Assembly: GCA_021816885.1 (NCBI GenBank)
Contig: JAKAWS010000008.1
Span: 1-48,594, forward strand
Origin: Microcaldota archaeon
Lineage (GTDB): Archaea > Micrarchaeota > Micrarchaeia > Micrarchaeales > Micrarchaeaceae
Direction: 5' to 3'
DNA: 48,594 bases
This document shows positions 2,410-12,445 of the stretch, one piece after another. A program made the translations under genes and the position numbers. Under the pieces are notes generated by a model, which was not told the origin of the DNA, made no database searches, and saw only the letters and a list, made by a program, of their open reading frames with translations. How positions within the stretch are numbered: position 1 is the first letter of the stretch; the number at the start of each line of letters is the position of its first letter.

Positions 2410-3462
2410 CTACACTTGGCCCAGCGCATATCCTATAGAGGCATTAAGTCTTGTCGATATTGTCTCGTATTCGCCGTTCACTATGAACTCCGGAGTCGTG
2501 GTTATGTTGTAGAACTGGGCAAAAAGCGACTGATAATATAGAGGCTTTGCAGAATTAAGCACGCATTCCCTCATGTATGTGTAATTTATCCCTGATTGAT
2601 TTGTTATCGTGTCTAGACTGGAGACCGGCACAGGATTCCCGGTAAACGCAACTGAGGTGTAATTCATGAAACTTGGGAATTCGGTCTGGTTGGACGCGCA
2701 GAATATGTATGATGCAAGCGCCTGCGTTTCCACAATGCCGAATGATTGATACTTGCTCTGCGCTGTGGCAGTGAATATGAAGTCATACTTAGGTGTTATC
2801 TCATTGCCGAATGTCTTGGATGCGTTTATCATCGCTTCTATGGCTCTCACAGAATCCTTCGAGTACGGATCTACCACTAGATTGATTGGTATGGGTTTCG
2901 ATGTGGTTGAAGCCACATGGCCCGCAAGTTTGACTGTGCCGTTCGCAATCACATAATCGTTGCTCGTATACGAAGGCGGTATCGTCTGTGACAAAGACTC
3001 GTTTAGGCTGAGGTTCTTGTTTAGCACGAGGAACATACCCACAGTCTGGTTCGTGTATGGGTCAATGTATGGGGTATATACAAACCACTTCTGCGAGACC
3101 GGCGTGTATATCGCGTTGTATTCGCTAGGTATAGTATAGTAAGGTATCAGCGAGAGAGATGTATTGCTTGACAGATACCCTGCGATTATCTTCTTTGCGG
3201 ACATTAGCGCTGCGCTTGAGTTGTACGATTGGGATGCGCATGTGCCGTTTACCACCCCGTATTCGCAGTTAACCAGCTTGACAGCACTGAACCTTGAGAG
3301 AGATAATGCCAGACCGACCAGCACCACTACAAGTACTATCAATGTTATATGAAGGTAGTCCAGCCCGCCCCGCCTTGTCGCCGATTTCACTATGAACGCA
3401 GGTGTTGCCTTCTTTATTACAATCTTCGACTGTTTTATTTTCTTCTCTTCCATATCTATCAT
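2410..3462 (-). CDS. membrane-anchored DsbA/thioredoxin-like protein lacking the CxxC site
   Basis: About 350 residues: a basic cytoplasmic N-terminus, one membrane anchor near residues 37-58 (ITLIVLVVVLVGLAL), then a large Asn/Ser/Thr-rich exported region with many N-glycosylation sequons. The C-terminal part looks like a DsbA fold: strand INLVVDPYS at the place of the active site, a helical insert, and TTTPEFIVNGEYE, the cis-Pro strand typical of DsbA-like proteins. Where a CPYC-type motif should follow the first strand the sequence is DPYSKDS, so redox activity is doubtful. Remaining cysteines (VNCEYG, TCAS, FCAS, RECV) could be structural. The start is GTG 3465, ATG 3462 or ATG 3453; it lies 3-15 nt after the 3' end of tRNA-Arg, which suggests a shared transcript. 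Confidence 0.65.
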   Translation of the reverse strand: MIDMEEKKIKQSKIVIKKATPAFIVKSATRRGGLDYLHITLIVLVVVLVGLALSLSRFSAVKLVNCEYGVVNGTCASQSYNSSAALMSAKKIIAGYLSSNTSLSLIPYYTIPSEYNAIYTPVSQKWFVYTPYIDPYTNQTVGMFLVLNKNLSLNESLSQTIPPSYTSNDYVIANGTVKLAGHVASTTSKPIPINLVVDPYSKDSVRAIEAMINASKTFGNEITPKYDFIFTATAQSKYQSFGIVETQALASYIFCASNQTEFPSFMNYTSVAFTGNPVPVSSLDTITNQSGINYTYMRECVLNSAKPLYYQSLFAQFYNITTTPEFIVNGEYETISTRLNASIGYALGQV

Positions 3463-3467
3463 CACTA

Positions 3468-3560
3468 CGGGCCTGGCGGGATTTTCATAACCTTGTTATT
3501 TTGAACCCGCGACCTCTACCTTAGGAGGGTATCGCTCTATCCAAGCTGAGCTACAGGCCC
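3468..3560 (-). tRNA. tRNA-Arg(CCT) with an 18-nt intron in the T-loop
   Basis: Acceptor GGGCCTG pairs with CAGGCCC, D-stem GCTC with GAGC, anticodon loop CTCCTAA gives CCT, T-stem GCGGG pairs with CCCGC, discriminator G. The gene is 93 nt instead of 75 because the T-loop, normally TTCAAAT, holds 18 extra bases. The insert forms hairpin ATAAC-AAG-GTTAT, and TTC can pair with GAA outside it, leaving three-base bulges (AAA and AAT) on opposite strands. That is bulge-helix-bulge geometry for tRNA-splicing endonuclease. The exact splice points are ambiguous because of flanking A residues. Base 27-43 is an A-G mismatch. Confidence 0.9.
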
Positions 3561-3582
3561 TGGGTATCTTTATCCGCATATC

Positions 3583-3590
3583 ATTAAATA
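3583..3590 (-). promoter_or_regulatory. TATA box of tRNA-Arg(CCT)
   Basis: On the minus strand this reads TATTTAAT and is centred about 26 nt upstream of the first tRNA base, the usual archaeal distance. It probably also serves the membrane protein gene that starts within 15 nt of the tRNA 3' end. Confidence 0.6.
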
Positions 3591-3742
3591 GTTTGTTGAT
3601 TCGTTCTGCTTGGGACAACAGCCATCCATCTGGTTATCCGTTAATCTTTTGTGCCTTTTCATTGTAATATTATCAGCTTGGAAAGATTATTTACATGGCT
3701 ATAATTCAAATTGACCTGTTACAAAACGAACGATCGATTATT

Positions 3743-9908: not shown

Positions 9909-10739
9909 GTGTACCTCCCGAGAGACGTAGTATACAACCTGAAGATAAAGGATGGAGACCTTCTTGATTTCATAAAAAATGGGGATTACTATATCCTTGC
10001 CGCGTCAGATTTCCTTCTGGAGAAAATAACCGCACAGAAAGGCCAGAAAGTCGAACAGAAAAGGACAATATCTGAAGAGGAATTGGTTGTCCTGAAGAAG
10101 CTTGACTCGCTCAGATACAAGAACCGTACTGAGGAGGTTGTGGCGCAAATGCTTGAAAAAGGCGAGAAGGCAGTGCTCAACAGCCTGATAAGTAAGAGGT
10201 ATGTTGTACCGCTGAAGAGCAGAGAAGACACGATATACAACATAAACGACGACATATACAAAAGATTTCTGGTAAAGGATTGGGCAGCGTTCGAGAAGTT
10301 TTCGAAAAGGGGCGCAGCTACCCCGAAAGAGGAAAGGGAAATGGCAATACCAGAGGTTAAGGCAGAAAAGATTGACCAGAAGGCGGCAACCCAGATAAAC
10401 GAGGACATAACAGAAGAACTCAGAAGAAATGGGTATCTTGTCATACCCGGAGTGTCTGAAGCTGAGAGTGCGTCCTTGAGGCTGGAAGGCGAGATAAGAA
10501 GCGGGCTTGTGATTGGCACCCGGGCATTCAACAAGAAGTATTACATAGTGTATAGGTCCTTTATGAATAAGCATTCCCCCGCGATAATAAGCGCGCTGCG
10601 CAAGAAAGACACGAGCACAGACGAGCTCGCAAAGATGACCGGCTTGGATTTGGACGGTGTCAGATCCATCATGTTCATATTGTCCGAAAGGGGGGAGGTC
10701 ATGGAGAAGAGGCACGACTTCTTTAGTCTAATAGATTAG
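9909..10739 (+). CDS. AbrB-like N-domain DNA-binding protein, 5' end possibly frameshifted
   Basis: 276 residues from the first in-frame start (GTG 9909). The N-terminus VYLPRDVVYNLKIKDGD is the second half of an AbrB/SpoVT swapped-hairpin DNA-binding domain. The first half (IPSKVYKYKDKLL) is encoded directly upstream in the same frame, but no ATG, GTG or TTG precedes it before a stop at 9852. A leaderless GTG at 9862 would supply the start if two bases were removed within the ATAT at about 9867-9870. The rest is charged and helical and ends with a winged-helix-like segment (STDELAKMTGLDLDGVRSIM). A regulatory role is likely. It lies 8 nt upstream of thrS and probably shares its transcript. 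Confidence 0.7.
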   Translation: MYLPRDVVYNLKIKDGDLLDFIKNGDYYILAASDFLLEKITAQKGQKVEQKRTISEEELVVLKKLDSLRYKNRTEEVVAQMLEKGEKAVLNSLISKRYVVPLKSREDTIYNINDDIYKRFLVKDWAAFEKFSKRGAATPKEEREMAIPEVKAEKIDQKAATQINEDITEELRRNGYLVIPGVSEAESASLRLEGEIRSGLVIGTRAFNKKYYIVYRSFMNKHSPAIISALRKKDTSTDELAKMTGLDLDGVRSIMFILSERGEVMEKRHDFFSLID

Positions 10740-10747
10740 GCGGTTTG

Positions 10748-12445
10748 ATGAAGGTATTACAGCTTGATTTGGAGTCAGTAGAGTATGAATCTATTAAGCC
10801 CGAATCAAGAATATATGAAGAGGACGTCGATAAATCCGGCAGATTTAAAGACGTGGTAATGCTACTGGTATCTGTAGAGAGGGGTGACACTACTGAAATT
10901 GCGGCTGAAGCCATGAAGGATGCGGTTGCGTTTGCGACCAAACAGAAGTCAGAAAGCATACTGATATACCCGTTTGCACACTTGAGCACAGATCTCGAAA
11001 GCCCGGAGCTCTCTCTCAAGATAATAAAATCTATGAGGGAATACGAGTCCTTGATTAAGATGCACTACGCGCCTTTCGGCTGGAACAAAAAGCTTAAACT
11101 TGAGATAAAGGGGCACCCTCTCGCAGAACAATCAAGGTCTTACGGCAAATCCGTATCAGAAAACATATCTAAGGAGCCGAAGAGACTTGACCGAAAAACA
11201 ATGGACAGGTCGATAGTGCGCAAGAGCGATTGGTCGGGACTGCCAGAAACGGACCATAGGAGCATAGGCGAGAAGCTCAACCTATACAGCGCGCAGGAAA
11301 TATCTCCAGGTATGGTCTATTGGCATAGTAAAGGTTATACGATATACAGAGAGCTGGTAAAGTTCCTTAGAGAGAAATACGAAGCGTACGACTACGCCGA
11401 GATAAGTACGCCTTCTATGGCGAACCTTGCGCTCTGGGATGTAAGCGGCCATTATGGGCACTATAAGGAAAACATGTTCATCGTAGACGACGAGGGATCC
11501 GGAATGGGGCTTAAACCGATGAACTGCCCATCTACGATAATGATATACAAGACAAAGAAATGGAGCTACAGAGAGCTGCCTTTCAGGACTGTGATATTTG
11601 ATAGGCTCTACAGAAAGGAGCTGAGCGGGGTCCTTGGGGGACTGACGAGAGTGCAGGAATTCAGCCAGGATGATGGGCACATATTTGCCGCTGATGAGCA
11701 GTTAGATGCCGAACTTGAGACAGTAATAAGGTTCATAAAAGAGGTTTACTCGGTGCTTGGGTTTAAGTACTCGCCTAAACTCTCCACCAAGAATTCGCAG
11801 AATTATATTGGAGATGATGAATTATGGGCAGACGCCACTAAACGGCTGGCAAATGCCTTGGAGAAGAACGGGATGGAGTATGAGGTTATGGAAGGAGATG
11901 CTAGCTTCTACGGACCGAAGATTGATTTCTATGTGATAGACGCTGCCGGAAAGGGATGGCAGTGCGCAACCATGCAACTCGATTATCAGCTGCCCCGTAG
12001 GTTCGGCATAACTTACACCGGCGAGGATGGAGAAGAACACACCCCTGCGATGATACACAGAGCTGTCCTGGGGAGCCTTGAACGTTTCATAGGAGTCTTT
12101 GTAGAGATGACACAGGGTCGCTTTCCTTTGTGGCTATCTCCTGAACAGATAAGGGTAATATCCATATCAGAGAACTATGCCGAATACGCAAGGAGCGTGC
12201 ATAGGTCATTGAAGGAAGCCCATATAAGGGCCGTGCTTGATGTCTCTGATAGGACCCTTGATTATAAGATAAGAGAGGCACAGATGGAGAAAGTTCCGTA
12301 CTCTGTCATCATCGGAAAAAGAGAGGAAGAGACACAGAGCGTGACAATCAGGGACAGAACAGGCAGGCAAGAGAAGATGGGAATCAGCGAGCTCGTCGCA
12401 AAGCTAAACCTAGAAATATCCGCCAGGGCAGGCGGCCCGGCCTAA
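10748..12445 (+). CDS. thrS: threonyl-tRNA synthetase, archaeal type
   Basis: 565 residues. The N-terminal domain of about 140 residues (KVLQLDLESVEYESIKP, and IYPFAHLS) is the archaeal DTD-like editing domain, which removes serine mischarged on tRNA-Thr. It is unlike the bacterial TGS/SAD arrangement. The class II core follows with motif 2 region YRKELSGVLGGLTRVQEFSQ and the zinc-site residues Cys, His and His (MNCPSTIMIY; DDGHIF; MIHRAVLGSLER). The anticodon-binding domain closes the protein. ATG 10748 is preferred over the ATG one codon earlier. The 3' end overlaps the convergent NMD3-like gene by 4 nt. Confidence 0.96.
   Translation: MKVLQLDLESVEYESIKPESRIYEEDVDKSGRFKDVVMLLVSVERGDTTEIAAEAMKDAVAFATKQKSESILIYPFAHLSTDLESPELSLKIIKSMREYESLIKMHYAPFGWNKKLKLEIKGHPLAEQSRSYGKSVSENISKEPKRLDRKTMDRSIVRKSDWSGLPETDHRSIGEKLNLYSAQEISPGMVYWHSKGYTIYRELVKFLREKYEAYDYAEISTPSMANLALWDVSGHYGHYKENMFIVDDEGSGMGLKPMNCPSTIMIYKTKKWSYRELPFRTVIFDRLYRKELSGVLGGLTRVQEFSQDDGHIFAADEQLDAELETVIRFIKEVYSVLGFKYSPKLSTKNSQNYIGDDELWADATKRLANALEKNGMEYEVMEGDASFYGPKIDFYVIDAAGKGWQCATMQLDYQLPRRFGITYTGEDGEEHTPAMIHRAVLGSLERFIGVFVEMTQGRFPLWLSPEQIRVISISENYAEYARSVHRSLKEAHIRAVLDVSDRTLDYKIREAQMEKVPYSVIIGKREEETQSVTIRDRTGRQEKMGISELVAKLNLEISARAGGPA

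Follow-up and report, generated by a model that had tools for sequence, protein, structure and literature searches.

A tRNA-Arg(CCT) gene interrupted in its T-loop

The analysed window is a 48,594-nt stretch from the genome of a Micrarchaeota-type archaeon (G000; 795 kb, 93.65% complete), which we compared with the genomes of 58 relatives. Its minus strand carries a gene for tRNA-Arg(CCT), which reads GGGCCTGTAGCTCAGCTTGGATAGAGCGATACCCTCCTAAGGTAGAGGTCGCGGGTTCAAA-ATAACAAGGTTATGAAAA-TCCCGCCAGGCCCG in strand order over 3560..3468 (Table 1). A 7-bp acceptor stem (GGGCCTG/CAGGCCC), a D-arm, a T-stem (GCGGG/CCCGC) and the anticodon loop CTCCTAA are present, and the anticodon CCT specifies arginine (codon AGG). 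The T-loop measures 25 nt compared with the usual 7 nt, an excess of 18 nt. ARAGORN missed the gene in the unspliced sequence, and the Rfam tRNA model scored it just at the gathering score (29.0 bits) while skipping the T-arm. Upon excision of 18 nt in silico, the complete cloverleaf was restored and ARAGORN called a tRNA-Arg(cct). The loop left by this excision, TTCAAAT, equals that of intron-less orthologs, which make the insert itself certain. An earlier reading made from the letters of the window (hereafter the sequence-only reading) had described 18 nt inserted into the T-loop of a tRNA-Arg(CCT) at 3468-3560 and a cloverleaf that is complete only after their removal, and our results bear out both statements.

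The uncharacterised gene just downstream of the tRNA encodes a membrane-anchored protein that is conserved right after tRNA-Arg(CCT) across the family and by eye looks thioredoxin/DsbA-like toward its C-terminus. Two toxin-antitoxin-like gene pairs (PIN domain; ParE/HigB-like) are located on the minus strand of the window at 12-645 and 772-1349, near tRNA-Glu(CTC) and tRNA-Arg(CCT).

Table 1 Features of the tRNA-Arg(CCT) locus, in coordinates of the window.
Feature	Position	Strand	Remarks
tRNA-Arg(CCT) gene	3560..3468	minus	93 nt unspliced, 75 nt spliced; CCA not encoded
Exon 1, ending in GCGGGTTCAAA, up to tRNA position 59	3500..3560	minus	100% identity with the sister species
18-nt intron ATAACAAGGTTATGAAAA, tRNA positions 59/60	3482..3499	minus	junction predicted from the bulge-cutting rule
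Exon 2 TCCCGCCAGGCCCG, position 60 to discriminator G73	3468..3481	minus	
Anticodon CCT	3523..3525	minus	
Central 4-bp helix, 5' strand TTCA, exonic	3502..3505	minus	partner TGAA at 3484..3487
Central helix, 3' strand TGAA, intronic	3484..3487	minus	
5' bulge AA^A with putative 5' splice site	3499..3501	minus	
3' bulge AA^T with putative 3' splice site	3481..3483	minus	
Distal intron hairpin TAAC-AAG-GTTA	3488..3498	minus	C-G pair replaced by T-A in the sister species
TATA-like box CTATTTAATGATAT	3578..3591	minus	18 to 31 nt upstream of the tRNA; kept in the sister species
Uncharacterised gene just downstream of tRNA-Arg(CCT)	2410..3465	minus	no Pfam match

A search for further copies yielded one candidate, which ARAGORN in intron mode labelled tRNA-Arg(cct) and assigned a 65-nt intron (L045, 172-309). 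We rejected this candidate: read by hand, it is a tRNA-Trp(CCA) whose anticodon loop is interrupted by a long intron containing a TGATGA box C-like motif. According to the sequence-only reading, a second intact Arg(CCT) gene would have marked the interrupted one as a pseudogene. No such gene was found in the assembly, which is ~94% complete, and the exons of the interrupted gene are under constraint: the sister species, the sole genome of the same genus in the comparison, matches it at all 75 exon bases, whereas the 60 nt upstream retain 19/60 ungapped identities, apart from the TATA-like box. A decayed pseudogene would agree with the failure of ARAGORN to detect the gene and has a precedent in a degenerate tRNA copy elsewhere in the genome (L177, described below), but in view of the intact exons and the single copy we consider it barely credible.

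A predicted strict bulge-helix-bulge motif

Together with the loop, the insert can fold into a strict bulge-helix-bulge (BHB) motif, in which the T-stem is followed by a 3-nt bulge (AAT), a 4-bp central helix (TTCA/TGAA), a second 3-nt bulge (AAA) and a 4-bp distal helix (TAAC/GTTA). The sequence-only reading had proposed a BHB-like shape with the same two bulges, and these stand; its helices (TTC/GAA and ATAAC/GTTAT) are one base off. By chance, 7e-5 of shuffles of the insert and 3e-4 of random 18-mers produce a strict BHB whose distal helix has 4 bp. Archaeal splicing endonucleases (EndA) cut after the second base of each 3-nt bulge. Cuts at these points would remove 18 nt (3499..3482) and leave TTCAAAT, thereby placing the intron between tRNA positions 59 and 60.

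Judged by this one gene, the exact junction is ambiguous within a run of A residues. Folding energies are not decisive either, since the T-arm folded by itself reaches its minimum free energy (MFE) in a structure devoid of the central helix (-10.7 vs -8.9 kcal/mol) and the strict register differs from that of the sequence-only reading by 0.5 kcal/mol. The decision instead comes from comparison. Of 44 homologous loops, 43 have a T opposite A57, irrespective of the first intron base (A in 27, T in 9, C in 4 and G in 4), which favours the TTCA/TGAA register. Removal at another junction, for example 56/57 or 58/59, by way of the relaxed motif that the 3-bp register of the sequence-only reading implies, would profit from the A-run, which renders several junctions equal in sequence, and from an energy within 0.5 kcal/mol of the strict register. 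Given the nearly invariant T opposite A57, such a junction appears unlikely, and we retain 59/60 as the predicted site.

Variable inserts within a conserved predicted fold

Among the relatives, the intron sequence varies while exons and BHB are conserved. In the sister species, the intron reads ATAATTAAATTATGAAAA and shows four differences, two of which are located in the hairpin loop while the other two constitute a compensatory change from C-G to T-A at the loop-closing pair. Our parser resolved the Arg(CCT) gene in 43 genomes, 28 with an insert and 15 with an uninterrupted TTCAAAT loop; two genomes that it missed (G013 and G023) both contain an insert when read directly, resulting in a total of 30/45. 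As determined by tblastn, the gene at 2410..3465 also follows tRNA-Arg(CCT) in ten other insert-bearing loci and in six loci without an insert, so the same site occurs with and without the intron. On a tree of this downstream gene, two changes of intron state could suffice, and gains and losses stay unordered.

The inserts in 44 Arg(CCT) and Arg(TCT) loops range from 12 to 43 nt in length. A full 4-bp central helix is found in 39 of these 44 loops, against a mean of 0.85 and a maximum of 5 over 500 rounds of shuffling, and 24 of them possess a distal helix of at least 3 bp (mean 2.5 and maximum 8 after shuffling). Homologous inserts have unrelated hairpins, in contrast to the bulges of 3 nt and the 4-bp helix, which are held constant. 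This pattern bears on the question of whether the insert might be retained, giving a mature tRNA with an extended T-loop hairpin, that is, an expansion segment instead of an intron. The MFE fold, which forms a hairpin within the loop, would suit such an extension. However, an extension needs neither the bulges nor the 4-bp helix, yet both are fixed across inserts of widely differing length and hairpin, and 15 orthologs lack the insert altogether. Furthermore, a T-loop of 25 nt would be expected to disturb the D-loop/T-loop elbow of the tRNA. Retention is therefore highly unlikely, and we favour removal of the insert as an intron.

Splicing enzymes encoded in the genome

The sequence-only reading had invoked the three-unit endonuclease of ARMAN-type archaea and proposed looking for the endonuclease type in the genome. 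A full-length relative of the ARMAN-2 enzyme is indeed encoded (contig C12, 386 aa), aligning end to end with ARMAN-2 EndA (4fz2) at an E-value of 2e-164. It contains the N-terminal and catalytic EndA Pfam domains and displays the three-unit (epsilon-2) architecture, a single chain of ~390 aa with N-terminal, catalytic and C-terminal units. Residues kept relative to 4fz2 include Y160 and K161 of the ARMAN-specific loop, the catalytic triad Y236/H251/K282, R275 and W384 (for residue roles see PMC12397907 and PMC6379350). An RtcB ligase is encoded as well. The broad specificity reported for the endonuclease, also part of the earlier claim, is not needed for the Arg(CCT) intron, because its motif is of the strict form.

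We also considered the endonuclease type as the cause of the distribution of T-loop introns and rejected it. The long form of the endonuclease (PF01974) occurs in nearly all families of the class, even where T-loop motifs are few; the enzyme type therefore permits T-loop introns but alone neither explains nor predicts them. In two related families (f6 and f7), many genomes encode a second, short PF01974 protein (~150-210 aa) in addition to the long endonuclease; we saw no such protein in the family of the source genome.

T-loop inserts in other tRNAs of the genome

Reading low-scoring candidates by hand, we found T-loop inserts in His(GTG), Lys(CTT), Ser(GGA), Leu(CAA), Arg(TCG) and Arg(TCT) as well (L042, L017, L044, L037, L039 and L040), resulting in seven such genes including Arg(CCT). 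Six of the seven inserts show the strict central geometry at 59/60, while that in Leu(CAA) would need a relaxed motif. The central helix covaries with the exon: in His(GTG) it is TTCG/CGAA and in Lys(CTT) TCCA/TGGA, both of which represent two-sided compensatory changes.

Several neighbouring observations concern the same set of tRNAs. The Lys(CTT) gene adjoins the splicing endonuclease gene, and Ser(GGA) seems to contain an additional anticodon-loop intron. The tRNA-Gln(CTG) and tRNA-Leu(TAA) genes (L041 and L043) seem to carry D-loop introns of ~20 nt. On contig C17, an Arg(TCG) gene with a 30-nt T-loop intron (L168, match 10574-10614) is followed ~0.7 kb downstream by a degenerate copy (L177, match 11297-11337) with an identical intron bar one substitution, a tRNA pseudogene that still has its intron.

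Prevalence across the phylum

To describe the frequency of such introns, we scanned 295 genomes of the phylum with the pattern GGTTCAAN{5,35}TGRAAATCC, which requires the TTCA/TGRA helix. The motif was present in 160 of the 295 genomes, compared with 2 for the reversed control. Counted by hand, it occurs in 65 of 83 genomes of the own family, 55 of 78 of the sister family and 40 of 134 of all others. The statement of the sequence-only reading that T-loop introns are rare outside Thermoproteales is thus wrong for this lineage, where the source genome by itself has seven genes with such inserts.

From ten genomes of the own family, 30 matches were examined, 28 of which ARAGORN called as tRNAs after excision. 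Their assigned identities comprise Arg(CCT/TCT/TCG), Ala(GGC), Lys and His, and some have long variable arms; the latter look like Ser genes and are probably misnamed by ARAGORN. The remaining two matches were one degenerate Arg(TCG) copy and one non-tRNA. The 952,257-bp genome G010 holds at least three T-loop introns, and the 989,838-bp genome G031 has one of 21 nt, located in Arg(CCT).

Within one genome, the introns of different tRNAs resemble each other more than expected by chance (permutation p < 1 in 2000, with one pair in the test being a degenerate gene copy). In G025, Arg(CCT) and Arg(TCT) have identical 13-nt T-loop introns (L158 and L167); the introns of Ala(GGC) and Arg(TCG) in G013 are similar, and similar pairs also occur in G018 and G019. 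This likeness hints at copying of introns between genes, for which gene conversion would be the alternative.

Discussion

In our interpretation, the tRNA-Arg(CCT) gene is functional and present in a single copy, and its T-loop harbours at 59/60 an 18-nt BHB intron that would be spliced by EndA and RtcB; we assign this reading a probability of about 0.94. In the precursor, the T-loop segment TTCA would pair with the intronic TGAA, and the resulting helix would be stacked between the T-stem and the 4-bp intron hairpin. Such stacking may make both bulges (AAA and AAT, 3 nt each) accessible to the three-unit splicing endonuclease, which would cleave each one behind its second base; ligation of the exons by an RtcB-type enzyme would then yield the normal loop TTCAAAT.

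Both the site and the size of this intron have precedents, given that 59/60 is among the published noncanonical intron sites of archaeal tRNAs and that the introns reviewed there span 11-129 nt with medians mostly of 12-25 nt (PMC4090602). The description of the intron as tiny in the sequence-only reading is therefore misleading, 18 nt being a typical length.

On a wider scale, small BHB introns may preferentially land at 59/60 throughout the whole order and be gained, lost and copied between Arg, Ala, His, Lys and Ser genes within a genome. This would constitute an independent counterpart of the intron transposition in Thermoproteales, set in tiny host-dependent archaea. We put this forward tentatively and hold it to be somewhat less probable than its negation. 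Our literature search, which covered neither the main ARMAN-2 paper (NAR 2011) nor preprints, found no work on T-loop introns across this order.

For annotation, the findings mean that tRNAs which appear to be missing according to a standard gene finder are present and interrupted in the T-loop. Should the motif count be a fair guide to how common T-loop introns are in this order, tRNAs may be undercounted in many of its genomes. At a single orthologous site, the order further provides dozens of comparisons with and without an intron, which could serve to test how such introns arise, disappear and move; for the splicing enzyme of this lineage, a structure with RNA has already been solved.

Compared with known systems, the intron matches the noncanonical BHB introns of archaea (Marck and Grosjean 2003; Sugahara 2008; PMC4090602) in its two 3-nt bulges, 4-bp helix, variable hairpin, position at 59/60 and length. 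It differs in its host, a Micrarchaeota-type archaeon, whereas the rich sources named in that review are Crenarchaeota and Nanoarchaeota, and in the repeated use of 59/60 within this order, mostly with the strict motif. A second parallel is with ARMAN-1 and ARMAN-2 (Fujishima 2011; Hirata 2012; PMC12397907), related organisms that share the endonuclease architecture and active-site residues and are already counted among the archaea with multiply interrupted tRNAs (PMC4033280). An expansion of tRNA introns together with intron transposition is described for Thermoproteales (Fujishima 2010, as cited in PMC4090602). Unlike that group, the present case involves another archaeal lineage, another endonuclease type and short introns only, whose likeness gene conversion might also explain; what both have in common is the occurrence of similar introns in different tRNAs of one genome.
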